This document shows positions 18,264 to 31,084 of a stretch of DNA of 41,507 nucleotides, piece after piece. The notes below the pieces were generated by a model. That model did no database searches. It was not told the origin of the DNA and was given only the letters and a program-made list of their open reading frames with translations. The position numbers were made by a program, and so were the translations under genes. Where the stretch lies: NCBI RefSeq assembly GCF_028275055.1, contig NZ_JAQCNJ010000055.1, forward strand, positions 1 through 41,507. Direction: 5' to 3'. The first letter of the stretch is position 1. Each line of letters opens with the position of its first letter. This DNA comes from Haloplanus sp. GTDB taxonomy: Archaea; Halobacteriota; Halobacteria; Halobacteriales; Haloferacaceae.

Positions 18264-18665
18264 ATGCGCATGGAACTTCGCGTGTGTAAGCTCTGCCACG
18301 ATGGCGAACACGGTAACGAACACAAGACCGCCGTGACACAGGATATGGTCCGGTGTGCGCGCCGCATCCGGGAGTATAAGGATCTCATCGGTCTCGGCGA
18401 ACTCCACATCACGATGGTTACGGAGGGCGAACCCGGCGGCGCCGAGGCTCTTCCGGTGATCGTCGCGGGCATCGAACAGGACCAAATCTCGTTGTCGGAC
18501 ACGCAACTGGTGATGGAAGACGAGGACGGCAACTTTCTGGTCTACCCCGAACCGAAGGATATTCTCGAGGTGCTCACGCGCAACATCGACCAGATGAGCG
18601 AACAGACCAGACAGGACGTGACGGTCGAACTCTCCTCACAAGGCGCGGAACTGCTGTCCGGATAA
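18264..18665 (+). CDS. Small CxxC protein of unknown function
   Basis: The protein has 133 residues and I do not recognise a family. It begins MRMELRVCKLCHDGEHGNEH, an N-terminal CxxCH plus further His residues that could bind a metal. A mixed alpha/beta region follows (LGELHITMVTEGEP, LPVIVAGIEQDQISL) and a helical acidic C-terminus (DILEVLTRNIDQMSEQTRQD). It has no signal peptide, so the CxxCH is unlikely to carry heme c. TTTATT at 18234-18239 is about 27 bases upstream, fitting a leaderless start at 18264. It converges with the formate dehydrogenase operon, ending 21 bases from the cytochrome b stop. Confidence 0.68.
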   Translation: MRMELRVCKLCHDGEHGNEHKTAVTQDMVRCARRIREYKDLIGLGELHITMVTEGEPGGAEALPVIVAGIEQDQISLSDTQLVMEDEDGNFLVYPEPKDILEVLTRNIDQMSEQTRQDVTVELSSQGAELLSG

Positions 18666-18686: not shown

Positions 18687-19676
18687 TTAGTCGTCGTCGG
18701 GTTGTCCGCCGTCGGCCGCGGTCGGCTGCTGGCGCTCCTTCTCCAGTCGGCGCTCCCACCGCACCCGCAGGAGGTTGCCGTACATCGAAAGAACGAGGCC
18801 AACGAAAAGCACGAAGATGCCCGCGTTGATCCCAATGGTGAGCAGGAGGTTCTCCGGCCCACCACCGATCGAAATCTCCCGAGGAACGGGGTAGCCTTCG
18901 TCGAAGATGGAACCGATCATGACGCTCGTGATCCCGACGACGGTCAGAATCCCCATGACCGAGCTCACCGCCCGCCACGAGGGCGAGAGCGTGAGGTCCT
19001 CGATTCCCCCATCGGCGTGGGTTTCGGGAATCAACTCACGCGGGATGTACGCCTTCGGCTCGACCGGGTAGAACGCGGGGTGGAGCCCGTGTTCGAAGAT
19101 GTGGAGCATAACTCCCATCAGCATGACGACACCGAGCAGGCCGTGAAAGACCACGAACCCCATCGCCGCGGTCTTGGTGCCGAAGTACTGCATCAGGCCG
19201 GTCTTGCTCCAGATGAGCAGACCGCTGACCGTCAGCAGGAACAGTTCGGCGGCGAAGATGAACACGACACCCTTGCCGATGTAGGACAGCAGGGGGATCT
19301 CGTCGGGGTCACCGCCGGCGAACTGCTTTGCGTTGGGGTGACGTTCGTCCGCGCGACCAAGCGCGAACTGCACGTCCTGAATGAACGCCACGAAGTCCTT
19401 GGGGCTGGGGATGATCTCACGGAAGTTGCTCCGTCCCGTGTCGGTCGTGATCATGAGCGTCATCCAGAAGCCGATGAGCGCGATCAGACCGAACCCGGCG
19501 GCCCGGTGGAGCGCCGTGACGCTCTGTGGGCCACCCAACAGCGACAGCATCCACCAGAGTTCGTCGTTGAACGTGAGGCTGTATCCCGTGAAAAACAGGA
19601 TGAACACGTCGAGTCCCAGCAACGAGTGGAACGTCGTTGTGACGCGGGTGAACTTGCCGTGATCCAGACTAGTCAT
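18687..19676 (-). CDS. Formate dehydrogenase cytochrome b (gamma) subunit
   Basis: The protein has 329 residues and belongs to the FdnI/FdoI-like di-heme cytochrome b proteins. Four to five membrane helices are visible. Candidate heme ligands match the E. coli FdnI pattern: H17 (FHSLLG), H57 (ALHRAAG) and a pair 14 residues apart, H178 and H192 (VFHGLLG, MLHIFEHG). It anchors the exported complex and passes electrons to the quinone pool. The ATG 19676 sits inside the last codons of the preceding gene (an 8-base overlap, ATGACTAG), indicating coupled translation. Both soluble ends and the C-terminal tail are acidic. It is the last gene of the operon. Confidence 0.88.
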   Translation of the reverse strand: MTSLDHGKFTRVTTTFHSLLGLDVFILFFTGYSLTFNDELWWMLSLLGGPQSVTALHRAAGFGLIALIGFWMTLMITTDTGRSNFREIIPSPKDFVAFIQDVQFALGRADERHPNAKQFAGGDPDEIPLLSYIGKGVVFIFAAELFLLTVSGLLIWSKTGLMQYFGTKTAAMGFVVFHGLLGVVMLMGVMLHIFEHGLHPAFYPVEPKAYIPRELIPETHADGGIEDLTLSPSWRAVSSVMGILTVVGITSVMIGSIFDEGYPVPREISIGGGPENLLLTIGINAGIFVLFVGLVLSMYGNLLRVRWERRLEKERQQPTAADGGQPDDD

Positions 19677-20052
19677 CGGTCTCACCCCCGTCGGTCGCGA
19701 CGGCCTCAGCGGTCCGCTCGCCGGGCTGTTTCATCCGCGTGGCGAGGCGGCGGAACGCCGCCCAGTGAATAAACACCATCAGGAGGATGAACACGCCCAT
19801 CAACACGTCCACGGCGTGGATGAGTGCAACGAGGAAGTCGAGCCACGGAACCGTGTTCCCGACGACCCAGTCGGTGCCGATCCCGCCGCCGGCGACCGTC
19901 GGGTTGACCCGGAACAGGCCCTCGTAGAAGACCGCCGTTCCGGCGGCCCACCAGACGGACCCCACCGCGAGTGCGAGACCGGCGATGGCGCTGAAGATCA
20001 CCGACACTTTGCTGTAACCGCTGGTTTCGGGAAGGTCGTCCTGATAACTCAT
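19669..20052 (-). CDS. Extra small membrane subunit of the formate dehydrogenase operon
   Basis: The protein has 127 residues and two predicted membrane helices (about 18-44 and 74-100) joined by a Gly-rich extracellular or cytoplasmic loop. The second helix carries His at both ends, 17 residues apart (ALIHAVDV and VFIHWAAF). It has no counterpart in the three-subunit bacterial FDH-N complex that I can name. Its ATG follows the ferredoxin-subunit stop by one base, and its own stop overlaps the cytochrome b start by 8 bases, so it is tightly coupled to both. Likely roles are quinone-site support, extra heme binding or assembly; all are inference. Confidence 0.78.
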   Translation of the reverse strand: MSYQDDLPETSGYSKVSVIFSAIAGLALAVGSVWWAAGTAVFYEGLFRVNPTVAGGGIGTDWVVGNTVPWLDFLVALIHAVDVLMGVFILLMVFIHWAAFRRLATRMKQPGERTAEAVATDGGETDD

Positions 20053-20053
20053 C

Positions 20054-20716
20054 TCAGAACACCTGCGCCTCCTCCTCGCCGAAGATGATTTCCATGGCGA
20101 CATCGTTGAAGAACGTGCCGCTGTCCCGCCGTTCCAGTTCCGCGGAAATCTCCGCGGCGTCGCCGACGAGAATGGCGTCGGTCGCGCACTCCTCGGCACA
20201 CGCCGGTCCCTTGCCGACGTCCTGGCGCTCCTCGCACATGGTACACTTGTCCATGTTGCCGCCGCCGCCGAACAACTGGGCGGCGCCGTCGTCGGATTCG
20301 GGGAACTGGGGCGCGCCGAACGGACACGCCGACAGGCAGTACTGACAGCCGACACAGAGGTCGTCGCGCACCTGCACGAAGCCGTCTTCCTTCTGGATCA
20401 GCGAGTCCGTCGGACAGACCGACACACACGGGGCGTTCTCGCAGTGATAGCACTGCATCGGGACGGCCGTCTCACCCGGAGACTCCCCCTGTTCGAGGGC
20501 GCGGGCGCTGTGGGCGTTGAGTCCGTCGGCCCCCTCCTGGCCCTCCATCATCGTCGAGATGCTGATCCGTTGCTCGTCGGGCGCCGAGTCCCACGTCCGC
20601 TTGCAGGCGACGACACAGCCGCCACAATCGATACAGGCCTCGACGTCCGGGAAGATGCGGGCGTCCTCGCCGGTGCTCATGACGCCCTGCTGCATTATTT
20701 CTTTGTTGCTTGACAT
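20054..20716 (-). CDS. fdhB: Formate dehydrogenase iron-sulfur (beta) subunit
   Basis: The protein has 220 residues and four ferredoxin-type cysteine groups: CIDCGGCVVACKRTW, CYHCENAPCVSVCP, CVGCQYCLSACP and CTMCEERQD...CAEECATDAI. This is the four [4Fe-4S] cluster layout of FdnH/DmsB-like electron-transfer subunits. It wires the molybdopterin subunit to the cytochrome b. It has no signal peptide, so it should be exported bound to the Tat-signalled catalytic subunit. Unlike bacterial FdnH it lacks a C-terminal membrane helix, which may explain the additional small membrane subunit next to it. The gap to the catalytic gene is 10 bases. Confidence 0.92.
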   Translation of the reverse strand: MSSNKEIMQQGVMSTGEDARIFPDVEACIDCGGCVVACKRTWDSAPDEQRISISTMMEGQEGADGLNAHSARALEQGESPGETAVPMQCYHCENAPCVSVCPTDSLIQKEDGFVQVRDDLCVGCQYCLSACPFGAPQFPESDDGAAQLFGGGGNMDKCTMCEERQDVGKGPACAEECATDAILVGDAAEISAELERRDSGTFFNDVAMEIIFGEEEAQVF

Positions 20717-20726
20717 TTTTGATCAC

Positions 20727-23700
20727 CTACTGGACGGTGCTCCCGTCCCGGACGTCGAAGTCTTTCTGAAGTCCGATGTCGTTGCGGTCCTGTGGGAACT
20801 CGAGGTCGACGTCCATGTTGAGTTCCTCGAGTAGACTCTGGGTGGCAGGACGGACCGAAACCATCGATACCTTTGTCTCCTGCATCTGCGTTTCGACGTC
20901 GTAGCCACGCGACGTGATGGCGTTGACCGAGTCTCCGATGGCGTACGGCACCATTCCGTCGGGGTATTTGTCCTCCAGACTCTGGCCTTTGAACACGCCA
21001 CCCCAGTGGTACGGCAGGAACGTTTCCTCGTCGTACGGCCGATCGGTCACCCGTGCTTTCACGAGAATGGATCCGCGGTCGGTCGAGGAAATCACGACCA
21101 GATCACCGCCGTCGACGCCGAGTTCCTCCGCCTTGTTCGGCGTGATTTCGGCGTACATGTGCGGTTGGAGGTCGGCGTTGTGGATGTTGCTCCGGGTCTC
21201 CGAGCCACCGCCCTGGTGTTCGACCTGTCGGCCGCTCGTCATTATCGTGTCGAGCGTCGGGCCGTCGTTGTCGGCGTGGATGGTCTGCATCGCCCGCTCC
21301 TGTTCCACGGCGTTGTTCTGGTCGAGGCGGTAGAAGTTGCGCTGTTGGCCGTTGGCCGGCCACTCCTCGACGAGGTCCGGGCGCGGACTCTCGAGCGGTT
21401 CACGGTGAACCGGCACCGTATCGAGGAAGTTCCAGACCACCCCACGCGCCCGACCGCGCCCCGTCGGCGCGTCGGGTTGGTTGTAGTCGTACTGCTCGTA
21501 GAACGACGGATCGATGTTCTGTGTCTCCGAGAGATACTGATCGAACTCGGGAACCCCGGTGTCCGGCTCGTTGATCGCCTGTGCGGCGGTGTACACCGAC
21601 CGCTGGTTGTCGAGTGCGTGCTGTTGTGGGATGGTGAGCTCGTCGGACTGGGTCTCCTGTGTCGGGTCGATCAGACTTTTTGGCGGGGTCGTCTTCCAGC
21701 CGGGATACTCCGGAATGCCGTGGATCATCCCGTCGCTCGCGGTGTCGGCCGTGGACGCCCAATCGGGGTTGTACGGTGCCCGCGTCATATCGAGGGCGTC
21801 ATCGACGCTGTCGTACCGGTCACCGACAGCGTCGACCGTGTTCTGGAGCGGATACTCCTCGTCCGTGTTCATCTCCGCCCACTCCTCGGGGCTCGGGGCT
21901 CTGGTACCCCAGCGGGTCCGGAAGTCCTGTCCCCCGTTGTTGGGGTTTTTGTCGTCGTTCCAGATGATCGGCGTTCCGGGGTGGCCCTCCCCCCAACACG
22001 GCCACGGGAGCCCCCAGTACTCGCCTTCGACCGGCGTCCCCTCGGCGGCCTGAAGATTCTCGTGGGAGAACGCGTAGTCGTACTCGATGTGTTGCTGGAG
22101 GCGTTCCGGTGTCTGCCGGTAGCCGATGGTGTTCGTCCCGAGGTTGAACTCCCGGATGACGTTCTCGTAGGTTGATTTCCCGTTGTAGATTTCGGGGCCG
22201 GTCCCCCAGTCGAAGTGCTCGCCAAAGCCGAGCGAGTCGGCCAACTCCTGCATGATCTGCAGGTCGGGACGGGAGTTGTGCGACGGCGGCTTGACCGGTT
22301 CGGACCACTGGATGGAACGGTGGGAGTTCGTCAGCGAGCGGTAGTGCTCGTACTGGCTGGAAGCCGGCAGGAGCAGTACCGGCGGTCCCTCCTCGAAGTC
22401 GGGGAGAACGCTCGCCACCGACGGGAACACGTCGACGACCACCAACAGGTCGATGTTCTCCATCCCTTCTTTCATCTGTTCCATCTCGCTGATAGAGTTG
22501 GAGGAGTGGCCCCAGAAGACCGCGATCTTCACCTGGTCGGGCTGGTAGACCGGCGTCTCCTGCATCCGGTCTTCCTGGTCGAGGGCACCCTCGAACCAGC
22601 GTGCGACCGTCAGCCCGTTCTGGAACATCATCGAGTTCGGCGCAGGGTTCTCCGGTCCGAACGTTCCCTCGTAGCTACTCGTCGGAAGCGAGTCAGGGCT
22701 CTCCACGTCGTTCGCACGGACGTACTTCTCCGGTGGCATCACCTCGAACCGGTCGTACATGTCCTCGAACGATGTCGAGCCGCTGGTGTAGGGGTTCTTG
22801 TCCCAGATGTCCGCCCACCACGACCAGCCACCGGGTGACAGCCCGTAGTACCCCGGCAGGATGTGGCTCGCAACGGCGAGGTCGGTCGCTCCTTGCACGT
22901 TGGCGTGGCCACGCATGACCTGCAGGCCACCGCCGCTCCGGGCCGCGCTCCCCGACGCGAGGCTCGCGGCGGCGTAGGAACGGATGTTCTGGGTGCCGTT
23001 GTTGTGCTGGGTGCCGCCCATCGCCCACTCGATCTGGATGTTGGGGCGGTGCTCGTCGAACAGTTCGGCGAGGCGCTCGATCTCCTCAACCGAAAGCCAC
23101 GTGATGTCCGCGACGGTCTCCTTGTCGTACTTGTCGAGTTCGGCGTCGATGTCCTCCCAACCCTGAACGCGGTCCGAAAGCATGTTCTGCCCGGTGTCGT
23201 CCGCGTCGGGGTCGAGTGCGAGGCCGTACTCGTCGCGGAGTTCCTTGATAATGCCCATCATAATGGCCACGTCGGTTCCCGGCCGGAACCGCATGAACTC
23301 GTCGGCGTGGGCCGCGGTCTTTGTGAACCGCGGGTCCATGACGAGCATGTGGCCACCGCGTTTCTGCCCTTCGAGAATATGCTGCATCGCGATGGGGTGG
23401 GCTTCGGCGGGGTTCTGCCCGATGACGACCAGCAGGTCGTACTGGCGGTAGTCCTGCAGCGTGTTCGTCATGGCGCCGTAGCCCCACGTGTTCGCGAGGC
23501 CGGCAACGGTTGTCGAGTGACAGATCCGAGCCTGGTGGTCGACGTTGTTCGTGCCCATAAACGCCGCGAGCTTCCGGATGGCGTAGGACTCCTCGTTCGA
23601 GTGGTGGGCGCTCCCGAGAAGCATGACGCTCTCGCGGCTGGCTTCCTCGTCAACGTCGACGGACTCCGACGGCGAGACGTCGGAGTCCGGCCACAGCGCC

Positions 23701-24110
23701 TGGATATCGGTCGACAGCCGGTCGTAGGCGGTGTCCCACGACAGCTTCCGCCACGCGCCGTTCTCCCGGATCATCGGGTGTCGGAGCCGCTTCTCCGAGT
23801 GTTCGGTCTCGTAGATGCCGGCGCCCTTCGAACAGAGCGACCCCTGATTGATCGGGTTCTCCTCCCATGGCTCCATTCCGGCGAACGAGTCACCGACACG
23901 CTCGCCGTGGAAGCCACAACCGACCGAACAGTAGTTGCAGATGGTCTTCGTCAACTCGCCTTCCGTATCGGCAGCCGACACCTCCTCATCACCGGACTGT
24001 GCAAGTGCCTGCCCCGCACCGCCGCCACCGAGGGCGACGGCACCGGCAAGCGCGCTCGCCTTCATGAACGAGCGCCTGTCTAAGTCTATCGAAACTGGTT
24101 CAGTGCTCAT
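20727..24110 (-). CDS. fdhA: Exported formate dehydrogenase catalytic (alpha) subunit, cysteine type
   Basis: The protein has 1127 residues. A twin-arginine signal (DRRSFMKASALAGAVAL, residues 11-27) directs folded export. The N-terminal [4Fe-4S] site has C58, C61, C65 and C93, with K95 after it. The molybdenum/tungsten ligand is Cys at 197 followed by H198 (ARICHSTTVAG), where E. coli FdnG has Sec196-His197, so it is a selenium-free formate dehydrogenase. GYGAMTN and GQNPAEAHPIAMQH are pterin-site motifs, and the C-terminal domain (about 950-1100) is the molydopterin dinucleotide-binding type. It oxidises formate outside the membrane and feeds electrons to FdhB and cytochrome b. It leads the four-gene operon. 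Confidence 0.92.
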   Translation of the reverse strand: MSTEPVSIDLDRRSFMKASALAGAVALGGGGAGQALAQSGDEEVSAADTEGELTKTICNYCSVGCGFHGERVGDSFAGMEPWEENPINQGSLCSKGAGIYETEHSEKRLRHPMIRENGAWRKLSWDTAYDRLSTDIQALWPDSDVSPSESVDVDEEASRESVMLLGSAHHSNEESYAIRKLAAFMGTNNVDHQARICHSTTVAGLANTWGYGAMTNTLQDYRQYDLLVVIGQNPAEAHPIAMQHILEGQKRGGHMLVMDPRFTKTAAHADEFMRFRPGTDVAIMMGIIKELRDEYGLALDPDADDTGQNMLSDRVQGWEDIDAELDKYDKETVADITWLSVEEIERLAELFDEHRPNIQIEWAMGGTQHNNGTQNIRSYAAASLASGSAARSGGGLQVMRGHANVQGATDLAVASHILPGYYGLSPGGWSWWADIWDKNPYTSGSTSFEDMYDRFEVMPPEKYVRANDVESPDSLPTSSYEGTFGPENPAPNSMMFQNGLTVARWFEGALDQEDRMQETPVYQPDQVKIAVFWGHSSNSISEMEQMKEGMENIDLLVVVDVFPSVASVLPDFEEGPPVLLLPASSQYEHYRSLTNSHRSIQWSEPVKPPSHNSRPDLQIMQELADSLGFGEHFDWGTGPEIYNGKSTYENVIREFNLGTNTIGYRQTPERLQQHIEYDYAFSHENLQAAEGTPVEGEYWGLPWPCWGEGHPGTPIIWNDDKNPNNGGQDFRTRWGTRAPSPEEWAEMNTDEEYPLQNTVDAVGDRYDSVDDALDMTRAPYNPDWASTADTASDGMIHGIPEYPGWKTTPPKSLIDPTQETQSDELTIPQQHALDNQRSVYTAAQAINEPDTGVPEFDQYLSETQNIDPSFYEQYDYNQPDAPTGRGRARGVVWNFLDTVPVHREPLESPRPDLVEEWPANGQQRNFYRLDQNNAVEQERAMQTIHADNDGPTLDTIMTSGRQVEHQGGGSETRSNIHNADLQPHMYAEITPNKAEELGVDGGDLVVISSTDRGSILVKARVTDRPYDEETFLPYHWGGVFKGQSLEDKYPDGMVPYAIGDSVNAITSRGYDVETQMQETKVSMVSVRPATQSLLEELNMDVDLEFPQDRNDIGLQKDFDVRDGSTVQ

Positions 24111-24280: not shown

Positions 24281-24303
24281 CGATGGTGCTGTTTAGCCGG
24301 GGT

Positions 24304-26433
24304 ATGAACGTCGGTGCATTCGTCTGCTCCTGTGCGGACACGTGCGACATCGATCTAGAGGGCGTCCGGGACGGGGTCCAGGACGTGGAGGTCGTCGCCA
24401 GTTCGTCACACCTCTGTGACGACGGCCTTCCGGCCATGGCCCATCTGATCGAGGAGTACGGCCTCGACCAGCTCCTCGTCACGACCCCCGAACCGGGGTG
24501 TCAGGAGGCGATCACGGAGGTGGCCGTGGATGAGGGACTTCACCCGGAGGCCACGGCCTTTGTCGACCACCGGGAGGGGGCCGCGTGGGTCCACGAGTCC
24601 GACGAGGCGACCGACAAGACCGCCCGCCTGCTGAACGCCAAGCAGACGGGACTCGATCACGAGGCCCCCGGACGAACCGTTTCCCGAGACGCGGGCGACA
24701 CCGTCGCCGTTGTCGGCGATCCGGAAACCGCGGCCGACCTCGCCGACACCGCGGACGTGACCCTGATCGCCAACGGCGCGGAGTTCGACGGCGTCGACGC
24801 CGACCTCGACGGTGTCGATCTGGCCCGCGGTCGCGTCGTCGACGTCGTGGGGGAGTACGGCGAGTTCGAGATCGAACTCCGTGCCCGCGTCACCGAGGAC
24901 TGCATCTCGTGTATGGACTGCGTTCACGAGGGACCCGACGGCATGGTGACGCGCAGTCCGGTCGACATCGCTCCCGAGGCACCGGACGGCGAGTGGGCCG
25001 ACTGTTGTCCGGTCGACGCCATCGACCTCGACGGCGTCGAACGAACGATCGAGGCCGATCAGGTGATCTTCCCGGACGCGACCGGAAAGGCGAGAGGGGG
25101 ACGGATCGGGCTCTACACCGGTCCGGTCGACGGGGCGACCATCGCGGCCGTCGAGGACCTTCTCGGGGGCGTCGAGAAGCCGAAATACCTCGATCTGGAC
25201 ATGGACGTGTGCGCGGCTGGCGAGTCGAGTCAGGTGGGCTGTACCGCCTGTGTCGATGCCTGTCCCCACGACGCGGTCGACCGACCCCACGTCGACGAGG
25301 TGGAGTTCGACCTCGTGGCCTGTCAGGACTGTGGGGCGTGTACGAGCGCCTGTCCGACGGGCGCGACAACGCTTCGTGAGCCGTCGAACGAGCGCATCGC
25401 CCGGGAGGTCGAAACGCTTCTCGATCCCGGGACCGACGACGGCGGCCTCCTCAACGGTGTCCTGTCCGGCGGCGGCGGCATCGAAACGCCCGTGATCGCG
25501 TTCGTTTGTTCGGAGCGTGCCGACGACGCACTCCGGCGGTACGGCCGCCTCGCCCGGGAGAACGGCGACCTGCGCTACCCCCCCATCCTTCCCGTCTCGG
25601 TGAACTGCACCGACACCGTCGGTGAGGCCCACATCATGCACGCCCTCGCCGCCGGGGCCGACGGCGTCGCCATCGTGGGTTGTGGAGGCGACTGTCTCCA
25701 CTCCGGCCCGGACCCGAAGGCAGAACTGGTCGATCGCCTCAACCGCGCGACGGCCGACCTCGGGCTTGGCGAACGCGTCACCTTTCTCGCGCCCGACCCG
25801 TCGGAGCCGATGGCGTTCGTCGAGACCTTCTCGCGGTTCGTGACCGAACTCGGTTCGACGCCGGTCCCCGAGGGCGGCCACGAGGCGACGGGGACCGTCA
25901 GGGGCGACAAGCCGAACCCGCCGTTCAACAGCCACGACTGGACACTCGAGAGCGTCCGGGCCGTTCTCGACCACGTCGAACCCGAGCAGGAGATGATTCG
26001 CGGCCTGAAGGACTTCGGCTGGATGGACGTCTCCGAGGCGTGCAACCTCACGCCCACCTGTTCGACGCTGTGTCCCACCGACGCGATCCGTCGGACCGAG
26101 AACGCCGACCTGCAGTTCAACCACGAGGACTGTGTCAACTGCGGTCTCTGCGAGGACGGCTGTCCGGAAACCGCGATCACCATGCACGACGGGCTCGACC
26201 TCTCGCGGCTGCCGGAGAACCGCGACGGGGAGCACTGGGAGACGGTCTATGAGGGTGAGATGCGACAGTGTGTCCGTTGTGACAAGCCCTTCGCCAGCGA
26301 AGGAACCGCAGAACACATCGCGAGCCAAGTTGGGGAGACGGTGGAGGGAATCGCCCCCGGGGCCGAACACAGCGTCTTCGAGTACTGTGGGGACTGTCGT
26401 GCCGCGCTTCTCTTCGAAGAGGGGGGTCGCTGA
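24304..26433 (+). CDS. HdrA/MvhD-like multi-cluster iron-sulfur protein without flavin domain
   Basis: The protein has 709 residues. Residues 1-115 match the N-terminal domain of heterodisulfide reductase HdrA (VGAFVCSCADTC, and the HREGAAWVHE region). Where HdrA has its FAD Rossmann domain there is only a short collapsed segment (TVAVVGDPETAADLADTAD) without GxGxxG. Ferredoxin-like clusters follow (C200/C203/C206 with C234/C235; GCTACVDACP near 313-321; CQDCGACTSACP at 340-351). Then comes an MvhD-like domain (about 390-510: FVCSERADDALRR, VSVNCTDTVGEAH, VGCGGDCLHSG), another two-cluster ferredoxin (580-621) and a C-terminal CxxC...CxxC ribbon. It is cytoplasmic. The context suggests electron transfer linked to formate metabolism, but no partner is proven. 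Confidence 0.8.
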   Translation: MNVGAFVCSCADTCDIDLEGVRDGVQDVEVVASSSHLCDDGLPAMAHLIEEYGLDQLLVTTPEPGCQEAITEVAVDEGLHPEATAFVDHREGAAWVHESDEATDKTARLLNAKQTGLDHEAPGRTVSRDAGDTVAVVGDPETAADLADTADVTLIANGAEFDGVDADLDGVDLARGRVVDVVGEYGEFEIELRARVTEDCISCMDCVHEGPDGMVTRSPVDIAPEAPDGEWADCCPVDAIDLDGVERTIEADQVIFPDATGKARGGRIGLYTGPVDGATIAAVEDLLGGVEKPKYLDLDMDVCAAGESSQVGCTACVDACPHDAVDRPHVDEVEFDLVACQDCGACTSACPTGATTLREPSNERIAREVETLLDPGTDDGGLLNGVLSGGGGIETPVIAFVCSERADDALRRYGRLARENGDLRYPPILPVSVNCTDTVGEAHIMHALAAGADGVAIVGCGGDCLHSGPDPKAELVDRLNRATADLGLGERVTFLAPDPSEPMAFVETFSRFVTELGSTPVPEGGHEATGTVRGDKPNPPFNSHDWTLESVRAVLDHVEPEQEMIRGLKDFGWMDVSEACNLTPTCSTLCPTDAIRRTENADLQFNHEDCVNCGLCEDGCPETAITMHDGLDLSRLPENRDGEHWETVYEGEMRQCVRCDKPFASEGTAEHIASQVGETVEGIAPGAEHSVFEYCGDCRAALLFEEGGR

Positions 26434-27059
26434 TGGACGAACAAGCCCTCTACGAGTCGCGGCTCGAACTTGTCGACTTTCTGACCGAGGTGCTTCACGA
26501 CGTTCCCGACGAAGCGTTCGTCGAGACGCTTCTTGCCGGCGACTTCGAGACGCCCGACGGCGAGGTGAACGAACCGCTCGACCGCGGCTTCGACGAACTA
26601 CACACCTTCGCCGAGGAACACCGAGAGTACGACATCGAGGCCGTGGTCGATGTGCTCGAACAGGAGTACACGCGGCTCTTTATCGGACCCCGACCGCCCG
26701 TCATCGCCCACGAGACGTACTACCGCGAGGACGCGGACTACCTGGGCGAAGGGCTCGCCGAGGTGGAGGCGAGTTACAGCGCAGCCGGTTGGGCGCCGCC
26801 GGAGGAGTATCCCGAGGAAGACGACTTCATCGTTGTCGAACTCGCCTTTCTCCGCAACCTGATCGATCGGCAACGCCGCGGGGACGAGGAAGCCGTCGGC
26901 TTTGAGCGGGTGTTTCTCGACGAACACGCGCTGACGTGGGTCGACGCCTTCACCGACGACCTACGTCAGGAAACCGACAGTCGGCTGTTCGTCGCCATCG
27001 CCGACATCTACGAGGGCGTGTTGCGGTTCGAGGACGAACTCGTCGCGCAACTGGTTTAG
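26433..27059 (+). CDS. TorD-like molybdoenzyme assembly chaperone
   Basis: The protein has 208 residues and is all helical. It fits the TorD/DmsD/NarJ family: a Glu-rich helix ending VLEQEYTRLFIGPRPPVIAHETYYRE, with the family-typical Y-x-R-LF-x-GP core, and a later EDDFIVVELAFLRNLI. These chaperones bind the Tat signal or folded precursor of molybdoenzymes and help insert the cofactor before export. The obvious client is the Tat-signalled formate dehydrogenase catalytic subunit next door. Its ATG overlaps the stop of the HdrA/MvhD-like gene (TGATG), so both proteins are made together. Its end overlaps the convergent small membrane gene by four bases. Confidence 0.87.
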   Translation: MDEQALYESRLELVDFLTEVLHDVPDEAFVETLLAGDFETPDGEVNEPLDRGFDELHTFAEEHREYDIEAVVDVLEQEYTRLFIGPRPPVIAHETYYREDADYLGEGLAEVEASYSAAGWAPPEEYPEEDDFIVVELAFLRNLIDRQRRGDEEAVGFERVFLDEHALTWVDAFTDDLRQETDSRLFVAIADIYEGVLRFEDELVAQLV

Positions 27060-27747: not shown

Positions 27748-27875
27748 GCAACTCCTCGCTGAGCAATAATGTGTGATTCAGAAGTATATACCCTCGGGTC
27801 TGATCGGGCCGCCGGCACCCTCCCCGTTCGAGCGGGCGGGTGATGCGAGACGCTTATGATCGTTGCAACCATCAG

Positions 27876-29114
27876 ATGGACAAGACGATGACATCTCGAC
27901 GGTCCGCACTCGCCCGCCTCGGCGCACTCGCCGGAACTCTCGGCCTCTCAGGGTGTGCGCAGGTTCTCGGGTCGGCCAGCGACAGCGGGACAGACCTGCC
28001 GCCGAACCCCCACGCCGATTCGCTCCCGGACCAGCAGTTCGCACAGAACGCGCATCTTCCCACCGACGAGGCGGGCAACGATCTTCAGGCGCACTACCGC
28101 CGCCTCATTTTTCTGACCCTCGACGGTGCCCCCTCCGACGACGCCGAGCGGACGGTCGAGCGCGGGATGCGGACGATCGAGGCAGCGTACGATTGGCGCC
28201 CCGACGGGCTCTTCCACGTTCTCGCGTGGGGGACCGACTACTTCAAGCGGCTGGGAAAACTGTCGGCGGCGCCGATCTCGGAGCCGCGGGTGATCTCGCG
28301 GACCGACGATCCGGACCTTCTCGAGTTCGACGCCCTGTTGATCCTCGAAAGCGACATGCCCTCGCGGTTGACCGCTGTCGAGAACGCCATGTTCGGGTCA
28401 GCCGATACGCTCGGCGGCGAACCGGTCGAAGACCCTCTCGGCGACGTGTTCTCCATCGCGGAGGTCCGGACCGGCTTTCTCGGCAAAGGGCTGCCGGCCG
28501 AACACGCCAACGTCGAGGGAATCCCTGTCGGCGCGCTCTCCGAGGACGACCCCACGTTTATGGGCTTCTTCTCGGACCGGCAGGGAACGCAGGCGAGCGA
28601 AGACCGGGTGACCATCGACTCGGGACGGTTCGCGGGCGGCACGACGCTCCACGTCTCACACCTCACACAGAGCCTCGGCGGCTGGTGGGAGGCACTCGAC
28701 GACACCGAACGCGTCGCGCGAATGTTCTCACCCGAGTTCGACCCGTCCGACATCCCCGACTTCGGGGCCGACGTCCCATTTACCGATGCCGTCCGGGACC
28801 ACGCCGAGGAGTTCGACGTCGTGGGCCACCACGAGAAGGTCGCGCAGGTCCGGCGTGACGGCGAACCGATCGTCCTCCGGCGGGATTTCAATACGACCGA
28901 CGGCGATCAGGCCGGCGTCCACTTCCTGTCGTTCCAACGAACGCTCGATCACTTCCGTGCCACCAGGCGGGCGATGAACGGGTGGTACGTCCGGGACGAC
29001 AGCCGGTCGATCACGGACCGCGAAAACAACGGGATCCTCAACTTCATCGACGTCCAGTCGCGCGCGAACTTCTACGTCCCGCGCCGCGACCGGCGGTCGT
29101 TCCCGTTGTACTGA
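27876..29114 (+). CDS. Tat-exported DUF7405-like protein, distantly related to DyP peroxidases
   Basis: The protein has about 412 residues from ATG 27876 (ATG 27888 is also possible). The N-terminus TSRRSALARLGALAGTLGLSGC combines a twin-arginine motif with a lipobox ending in Cys, so it should be an exported lipoprotein. The body resembles haloarchaeal DUF7405 proteins and, more distantly, the two-ferredoxin-fold DyP peroxidases. The relevant segments are VERRTGFLGKG-like VRTGFLGKGLPAEH, a His in HVSHLTQSLGGWW, VVGHHEKVAQVRRDG and the late segment FLSFQRTLDHF. I do not see a clean GxxDG heme-pocket motif, so peroxidase activity is uncertain. It is divergent from the three-gene membrane set and shares its 128-base promoter region. 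Confidence 0.68.
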   Translation: MDKTMTSRRSALARLGALAGTLGLSGCAQVLGSASDSGTDLPPNPHADSLPDQQFAQNAHLPTDEAGNDLQAHYRRLIFLTLDGAPSDDAERTVERGMRTIEAAYDWRPDGLFHVLAWGTDYFKRLGKLSAAPISEPRVISRTDDPDLLEFDALLILESDMPSRLTAVENAMFGSADTLGGEPVEDPLGDVFSIAEVRTGFLGKGLPAEHANVEGIPVGALSEDDPTFMGFFSDRQGTQASEDRVTIDSGRFAGGTTLHVSHLTQSLGGWWEALDDTERVARMFSPEFDPSDIPDFGADVPFTDAVRDHAEEFDVVGHHEKVAQVRRDGEPIVLRRDFNTTDGDQAGVHFLSFQRTLDHFRATRRAMNGWYVRDDSRSITDRENNGILNFIDVQSRANFYVPRRDRRSFPLY

Positions 29115-30142: not shown

Positions 30143-30904
30143 CTACTCCTCGTCCAACGTCCAGTCGGCCTTCTCGGCCGCCTCCGCGAGCGGGACGAAC
30201 TCCCAGTCGGCCTCGGCGGCGACGCGTTCGTCCTCGCCTTTGATGCCGACGACGACCATTCGCTCCGCGTAGAACATCGAACGTGGACCGACCTCCGCGA
30301 GTCGTTCCCCCGGTCCAGTGCCGGTCCCGCTGAAGAAATCGGCGTCAACGCCGTGTTCGCGCTGGAAGCGGTTGATGACCGGCGTGTCCACACGGCCGAC
30401 GATGCCGACCCAGTCCGCCCACGCGTCGGCGTCGGTGAACGCCGAGGCCGGGTACGCCAGTCGTTGGGCGGCCCGGTAGGTGAGTGCCATCGTCATGTCG
30501 TCGGGATCCTCGCCGTGGGGTGCCCCACCGGTCGCCCGGCGGGTCGTCGAGGTGGCGTCCTCGTTCTCGGGCACACCACCCTCGGGCGTCTCCCGATCCC
30601 CGGCGGGTGAACTTCCCGCGCCGCCGCCCTCGATGGGAATGCCGACCGGCTTGTCGTCGCCCTGCCTGGGGACGTGCGGAGTGGGGGTGTGGCCGTTGTC
30701 GCCACCGTCGTCGGTGCCGTCGGTACCGCCGTTACCCCACGATCCGTCGAGGTCGGTGTGACCAGCGTCGCTCGTCACGAACGGGTCGTCCGGTTCCTCT
30801 GTCGGGTCACCCTCGCCCCGCCAGAACCAGTCCCCGCGGGTCGGTTCGTCGTCCGGTTCGTCGTCGTCAACTTCGACGTCGTCTAGGTCGATTCTGTCGG
30901 TCAT
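30143..30904 (-). CDS. Acidic DUF7124-like hypothetical protein
   Basis: The protein has 253 residues. The N-terminal 130 residues are low-complexity and acidic, with Asp/Glu/Gly/Pro repeats and three short DWFW or DPF motifs. The C-terminal 115 residues form a compact domain (MTMALTYRAAQRLAYPASAF, ADWVGIVG, DFFSGTGTGPGERL, MVVVGIKGEDERVA) that resembles a haloarchaeal domain I recall as DUF7124. There is no membrane segment. The start at ATG 30904 is preferred over a long basic upstream extension. The role is unknown; the long tail suggests a scaffold or interaction partner. Confidence 0.6.
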   Translation of the reverse strand: MTDRIDLDDVEVDDDEPDDEPTRGDWFWRGEGDPTEEPDDPFVTSDAGHTDLDGSWGNGGTDGTDDGGDNGHTPTPHVPRQGDDKPVGIPIEGGGAGSSPAGDRETPEGGVPENEDATSTTRRATGGAPHGEDPDDMTMALTYRAAQRLAYPASAFTDADAWADWVGIVGRVDTPVINRFQREHGVDADFFSGTGTGPGERLAEVGPRSMFYAERMVVVGIKGEDERVAAEADWEFVPLAEAAEKADWTLDEE

Positions 30905-31084
30905 GAGTTCGGCGTCCCGGTCGTGTTGTTTCGCGTCGGGCGAATGGTGACCCGTTACCAGTTCCCACAATAAAACCTGTCGCCGGGTCACTCCGGCCAA
31001 ATTATCAGTATAGATACCCTTCCGGCGACGACGCCGCGATCGCAGGTAGAGGTCGCGGTTTTCGAGCCGGTCAGGCAACGGCCT

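Follow-up and report, generated by a model that had tools for sequence, protein, structure and literature searches.

In methanogens, formate dehydrogenase (FDH) and NiFe hydrogenase are donors that dock on MvhD/HdrA complexes. Described maturation factors of molybdoenzymes form the second point of comparison. In the passages of a 2023 review that concern these factors, NapF is a cytosolic maturation factor of the periplasmic nitrate reductase that carries four [4Fe-4S] clusters and is required for reconstitution of the NapA cluster in one species, and FdhE is a maturation factor with a CX2C rubredoxin that is tied to exported FDHs (PMC10609526). Halobacteria are described there as often having FDH genes without fdhD, and their cofactor insertion, its sulfuration and the proteins involved are left open (PMC10609526). 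The window analysed here, a stretch of 41,507 nucleotides of Haloplanus sp. (contig NZ_JAQCNJ010000055.1) from a genome bin of 2.31 Mb and 79% completeness with haloarchaeal relatives, encodes next to an exported FDH an HdrA-MvhD-derived polyferredoxin with a HycF-like tail, which we call HDRX.

Domain composition and descent of HDRX

The full open reading frame around HDRX extends from 24283 to 26433 on the plus strand (716 residues). Because Met8 of this frame (nt 24304) is the start in most relatives, HDRX was counted as a protein of 709 residues (24304-26433, +). Internal stops suggested in relatives by rows labelled "1 TGA" were rejected, since in 7/7 such rows checked the TGA was codon 3 of the match, directly before the conserved start Met and hence outside the HDRX gene. 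The protein consists of an HdrA N-terminal domain (residues 1-120; 24304-24663), a vestigial FAD domain of the thioredoxin-reductase type (residues 131-291; 24694-25176) with an inserted ferredoxin (residues 199-236; 24898-25011), core ferredoxin module A (Cys 303, 313, 316, 320, 340, 343, 346 and 350; 25210-25374), an MvhD/FlpD domain (residues 397-515; 25492-25848), core ferredoxin module B (Cys 580, 586, 590, 610, 613, 616 and 620, with Thr 583; 26017-26193) and a HycF-like C-terminal CxxC...CxxC ribbon (Cys 656, 659, 695 and 698; 26239-26421), all on the plus strand, and it contains five or more cluster motifs. The Pfam search placed FlpD/MvhD at 404-523 of the 716-residue frame (E 2.3e-18) along with ferredoxin families, and no FAD domain was present among the 13 families matched. 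The MvhD/FlpD fold was also found with Foldseek against 5odc_D (TMt 0.73), while HdrA, its N-terminal domain and the HycF-like tail were recognised by NCBIfam and PDB searches. The fusion of an HdrA N-terminal domain, ferredoxin clusters, an MvhD domain and a C-terminal ribbon in one protein, as put forward in the preliminary description, was borne out by the Pfam, NCBIfam and PDB matches.

Alignment of HDRX with type Ia HdrA (HdrA-MvhD, for example HdrA2, NF040770) by hhalign gave a probability of 99.9 and an E value of 9.4e-34 over 503 columns, with a common domain order over residues 2-525. The ancestor of HDRX was an HdrA-MvhD fusion, from which the flavin motif was lost and to which the HycF-like tail was added. 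Unlike type Ia HdrA, HDRX has this tail, lacks GxGxxG and has an FAD domain cut to a thioredoxin-reductase-like remnant of 157 residues, compared with 419 in HdrA. The GxGxxG motif was missing in 85/87 distinct HDRX sequences and present in 14/14 fetched HdrA; one of the two HDRX matches, at locus L113, reads GGGAVG and the other, from Variovorax, lies outside the Rossmann loop. FAD itself is probably absent from HDRX, judging from the sequences. The proposal of an HdrA/MvhD chimera without a flavin site thus held for the fusion and for the loss of the motif, but a remnant of an FAD-type fold is still detected. With the short FAD domain, the missing GxGxxG and the extra tail, bifurcation by HDRX is not expected, and HdrA-type bifurcation in haloarchaea was rejected as an explanation, the motif and the greater part of the FAD domain having been lost. 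A bifurcating flavoprotein has here lost its flavin motif and has apparently been moved to a different job.

Cysteine conservation in HDRX was counted over 87 distinct bacterial, haloarchaeal and other archaeal sequences, with haloarchaea strongly represented. The 19 cysteines given above for the two ferredoxin modules and the ribbon were found in 87/87. The window protein has all four MvhD cysteines, which were kept in 72 (Cys402), 74 (Cys435), 75 (Cys460) and 65 (Cys464) of the 87 sequences of this haloarchaea-rich set, and the HdrA N-terminal Cys8, Cys10 and Cys38 were kept in 77, 83 and 80. Among 16 diverse representatives, Cys402 was present in nine and missing in seven, and the cysteines of the inserted ferredoxin were missing in five. 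Conservation throughout the set is confined to both ferredoxin modules plus the ribbon and does not extend to the electron path of HdrA and MvhD. At residue 583 (nt 26050-26052), where one 4Fe-4S motif would have its second Cys, 29/87 sequences have Cys and the main haloarchaeal clade has Thr, so that in this clade the site may carry a [3Fe-4S] cluster or another ligand.

Gene neighbourhoods and co-occurrence with exported enzymes

The stop codon of HDRX is overlapped by 1 nt by the gene of a TorD-family chaperone (26433-27059, +; Pfam Nitrate_red_del, E 8e-24). Divergent from HDRX and all on the minus strand are FdhA, recognised by Pfam and NCBIfam as a putative Tat-exported formate dehydrogenase catalytic subunit (20727-24110; best NCBIfam model Fdh-alpha, with a score below the model cut-off), FdhB, a ferredoxin-type Fe-S subunit (20054-20716), and FdhC, a cytochrome b561-type membrane subunit (18687-19685; Ni_hydr_CYTB, E 1.4e-18). 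On sequence grounds the window FDH is a normal, complete three-subunit FdhABC, predicted to be Tat-exported and membrane-anchored, and the same kind of enzyme is described, in the passages concerned, as the respiratory FDH of Halodesulfurarchaeum and natronoarchaea (PMC5437934, PMC6176080). Since FdhABC is complete without HDRX, HDRX is not needed for electron transfer to the membrane, and an FDH without a membrane path was ruled out by the presence of both FdhB and FdhC in the window. Next to FdhC lies u18264 (18264-18665, +), a protein of 133 residues and unassigned family that has no Pfam or NCBIfam match and bears the motif CkxC..GxHGN..KTa.t.DMV. Its orthologues (>=59% identity) occurred in 99/391 genomes, 98 of which are HDRX genomes, and a paralogue of about 55% identity is common in other genomes. 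In several loci without a window-type FdhABC, u18264 directly precedes HDRX. Other neighbours were also recorded. A DUF7405 protein with a Tat-lipoprotein-like start (27840-29114, +) is a frequent TorD neighbour in these clusters, and the Haladaptatus gene at its position is annotated as a Dyp-type peroxidase. DUF7124 proteins lie near HDRX in the window (30143-31078, -) and in locus L060 (10739-11485), a locus that also has an aldehyde ferredoxin oxidoreductase close by.

The usual gene order was u18264 (+), FdhC, FdhB and FdhA (-), HDRX and TorD (+), and in several other haloarchaea FdhA-FdhB-FdhC-TorD-HDRX lay on a single strand. In 83 distinct loci, TorD was found within 1.5 kb of HDRX in 69, and the same number had a molybdoenzyme gene no more than 4.5 kb away; at least one of them was within these limits in 75 loci and both in 63. 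The eight loci with neither were L056, L057, L059, L064, L067, L069, L071 and L121, and in L059 and L067 an FDH gene starts about 6 kb from HDRX. In L056 and L057, HDRX adjoins a heavy-metal (copper-type) P-type ATPase gene and the FDH operon is elsewhere in the genome. The Tat status of the enzymes was assessed in the fetched loci, which represent some of the 108 FDH genomes: RRx[FLIVM] was found near the start of 68/72 complete molybdoenzyme ORFs of HDRX loci, and the other four are an ORF of L139 with SRRDALKISG, one at a contig end, one with a broken frame and one with a probably wrong start. HDRX itself had Tat-like N-termini in 0/87 sequences, two having RR with no hydrophobic stretch after it, which agrees with the cytoplasmic location that had been proposed and is predicted here.

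Enzymes other than FDH also accompanied HDRX. Loci L050, L062, L066 and L070 contain a PhsA-like Tat enzyme, an Fe-S subunit, NrfD, a TorD-like protein, HDRX, Mrp/ApbC and MobA, the families having been assigned on L050, where MobB is found too, and carried to the other three by similarity. A Natronorubrum plasmid carries MobA, a molybdoenzyme, an Fe-S protein, NrfD, TorD and HDRX with arsR, arsD and arsA around them, and Mrp is not among the genes of its incomplete table. In the 20 loci fetched outside Halobacteria, TorD adjoined HDRX in 19 and an FdhA-like ORF was matched in 13; TatC lay within 7 kb of HDRX in L117 and L122. In L121 (5542-10917), from genome G413, HDRX is beside TatA and an exported (Tat) NiFe hydrogenase, and neither TorD nor FDH is present in the locus. 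HDRX goes with whichever exported enzyme is present, be it FDH, a PhsA-like enzyme or NiFe hydrogenase.

A search of 391 Halobacteria genomes found HDRX in 107 (E<=1e-30) and window-type FdhA in 88 (E<=1e-200), and 88/88 genomes with window-type FdhA had HDRX; the genomes are related, so that these co-occurrence counts are not independent. A second, more distant FdhA used as query matched 108/391 genomes, 103 of them within the HDRX set. With divergent copies included, HDRX was present in 107/108 Halobacteria genomes with this FDH family, and the suggested link with an exported FDH and TorD is therefore strongly supported, as is the co-occurrence with fdhA. G052, G182, G283 and G367 were considered as FDH genomes without HDRX and rejected because a divergent HDRX is present in each, which leaves G129, with FDH and TorD and without HDRX, as the sole exception. 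Conversely, HDRX occurred without this FDH family in G213, G286 and G383, where its operon is that of a different Tat molybdoenzyme (for G286 and G383, no other PF00384 match was found in the genome), and in G160, which has a decayed copy. In this last locus (L061, 9441-11619), HDRX has lost its N-terminus and lies between a TorD gene fragment, which it adjoins directly, and Mrp, and the locus holds no molybdoenzyme gene. Divergent HDRX was not found in the two FDH-negative genomes that were re-tested for it (G080 and G281), and the other FDH-negative genomes were judged by the E<=1e-30 cut-off, except those in a phylum-wide sample, in which 44/246 genomes, Halobacteria included, matched the HDRX alignment A1. 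All HDRX genomes tested for PF00384 had at least one match (19/19 and, in a second set, 12/12). HDRX thus came with a PF00384 protein in every genome tested, but the one match of G413, whose HDRX is next to the NiFe hydrogenase, is 450 residues long and FwdB-sized.

Bacterial relatives in formate dehydrogenase clusters

A tblastn search of plasmid records matched 83 records, two of them haloarchaeal and the others bacterial, mainly from Sulfitobacter and its kin; among the 40 matches listed, most of the annotated ones were named "4Fe-4S binding protein". The proteobacterial protein of this name is homologous to HDRX over its full length (for the Sagittula relative, 25% identity over 1-699, E 6e-22), has the same 19 core cysteines and lies in a cluster with TorD and a Tat-exported FDH. 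In Sagittula, Bradyrhizobium and Variovorax, the cluster contains TorD, FdhA, FdhB, DUF3305, DUF3306 and a small Tat or FDH-labelled protein, with an Mrp-type ATPase in Sagittula. The relative is directly before TorD in Variovorax and 1.6 and 3.7 kb from TorD in the other two. Unlike the window HDRX, the three relatives compared have lost all four MvhD cysteines, and two have lost the N-terminal CxC and two the inserted ferredoxin. DUF3305 and DUF3306 were neighbours in the bacterial clusters and were not noticed in a general inspection of the archaeal loci.

Genes of such clusters appear in passages of earlier papers. Bay et al. 2015 describe fer4, DUF3305 and DUF3306 genes as accompanying such chaperones (PMC4464133), the iron-sulfur protein SO_4506 is beside the FDH chaperone SO_4507 in Shewanella (PMC5826389), and VC1516 is beside VC1515 in Vibrio (PMC5816637). 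Going solely by operon place, SO_4506 and VC1516 are perhaps proteins of the same kind. No paper testing HDRX or its bacterial relatives was seen among the open-licence papers listed or consulted. The present comparison joins this unnamed protein of bacterial FDH clusters to the HdrA family.

Proposed function of HDRX and comparison with known maturation factors

We consider HDRX to be, somewhat more likely than not (about 0.55), a cytoplasmic maturation accessory for Tat-exported Fe-S redox enzymes, chiefly formate dehydrogenase, and a partner of TorD. A predicted cytoplasmic protein that accompanies TorD and whichever exported Fe-S enzyme is present, and that keeps an invariant four-cluster ferredoxin and a CxxC ribbon, is best understood as a partner in maturation that works like NapF and FdhE, and the neighbours TorD and, in some loci, Mrp/ApbC, MobA and TatA/TatC also indicate maturation. 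HDRX and TorD would bind the apo form of the catalytic subunit together with FdhB ahead of export, and the ferredoxin-type clusters and the ribbon of HDRX could provide either Fe-S clusters or electrons of low potential for the insertion of cofactors or for activation. Once filled, the enzyme would exit through Tat and dock on the membrane cytochrome. Several findings speak against this reading. Gene linkage fits a maturase and an electron partner alike, the retention of the MvhD cysteines by most copies in haloarchaea goes beyond the need of a plain maturase, FdhD and FdhE are also missing in eight haloarchaea without HDRX, and both G129 and the eight loci without a near TorD or molybdoenzyme are exceptions to the association.

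The preliminary description had suggested an electron hub or a redox sensor. As a hub, HDRX would be a cytoplasmic conduit that accepts or donates ferredoxin-level electrons linked to formate or hydrogen oxidation, like methanogen HdrA-MvhD with FdhAB or MvhAG and without bifurcation. Its descent from HdrA-MvhD over residues 2-525, its many cluster motifs, the MvhD cysteines of most haloarchaeal copies and a range of partners that includes FDH and, once, NiFe hydrogenase all fit such a role, and the FDH-HDR structure 7bkd is among the fold matches listed. However, these are exported enzymes, and FdhA comes with Fe-S and membrane subunits of its own, which places the mature enzyme across the membrane from HDRX; in addition, Cys402 is lost in 7/16 diverse representatives and the HdrA N-terminal cysteines in some, a PhsA-like enzyme is among the partners, and the neighbours suggest maturation. 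The hub proposal was thereby weakened, and we regard it as unlikely. Export of HDRX as an additional subunit of the outer enzyme, by hitchhiking on the Tat signal of FdhA, would agree with its near-perfect co-occurrence with FDH and with the window FdhB, which has no signal of its own and so presumably hitchhikes within the FDH complex. This is quite improbable, since in haloarchaea with FdhABC the HDRX gene forms a separate divergent pair with that of a cytoplasmic chaperone, HDRX accompanies several unlike enzymes, and a protein so rich in clusters seems out of place outside an aerobic halophile. The cluster motifs and the divergent arrangement might also suit a sensor of redox state or cofactor that controls the divergent fdhABC promoter or acts as a gate for export, but no DNA-binding family was present in the Pfam matches or among the NCBIfam and fold matches listed, and HDRX is inside the fdh operon in other archaea and inside a long operon in Variovorax, so that a sensor is the reading to which we give the least credence.

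FdhD (PF02634) was found in 0/34 haloarchaea (26 with HDRX, 8 without) and in 4/4 non-halophilic archaea with HDRX tested. Because these other archaea have both proteins, HDRX is no simple substitute for FdhD, and its role as a general FdhD replacement was rejected as unsupported. FdhE (PF04216) was found in 0/38 genomes tested, with a positive E. coli control, which conflicts with the statement in the review passages that fdhE goes with exported FDHs, archaea included (PMC10609526). HDRX is a candidate for part of the halobacterial maturation gap described in the review. A wider proposal is that haloarchaeal FDH is matured without FdhD and FdhE by a route of its own, with HDRX, TorD and perhaps u18264 responsible for loading clusters and sulfurating the cofactor, so that a bifurcating HdrA would have become a metallocofactor maturase; we put it forward tentatively and think it rather doubtful as a whole. 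With HDRX present in nearly all Halobacteria genomes of this FDH family, the question of halobacterial FDH maturation becomes testable.

Neither the FdhE nor the FdhD domain was among the 13 Pfam families matched by HDRX. HDRX therefore differs from FdhE in its domains, but the two are alike, as far as the review passages describe FdhE, in a CX2C iron-binding element and a tie to exported FDHs. NapF is small, and HDRX differs from it in having HdrA, MvhD and ribbon parts. The likeness to NapF is one of description, as given in those passages: both have four ferredoxin-type clusters, NapF is cytosolic and HDRX has no export signal, and each is linked to a Tat-exported molybdoenzyme.
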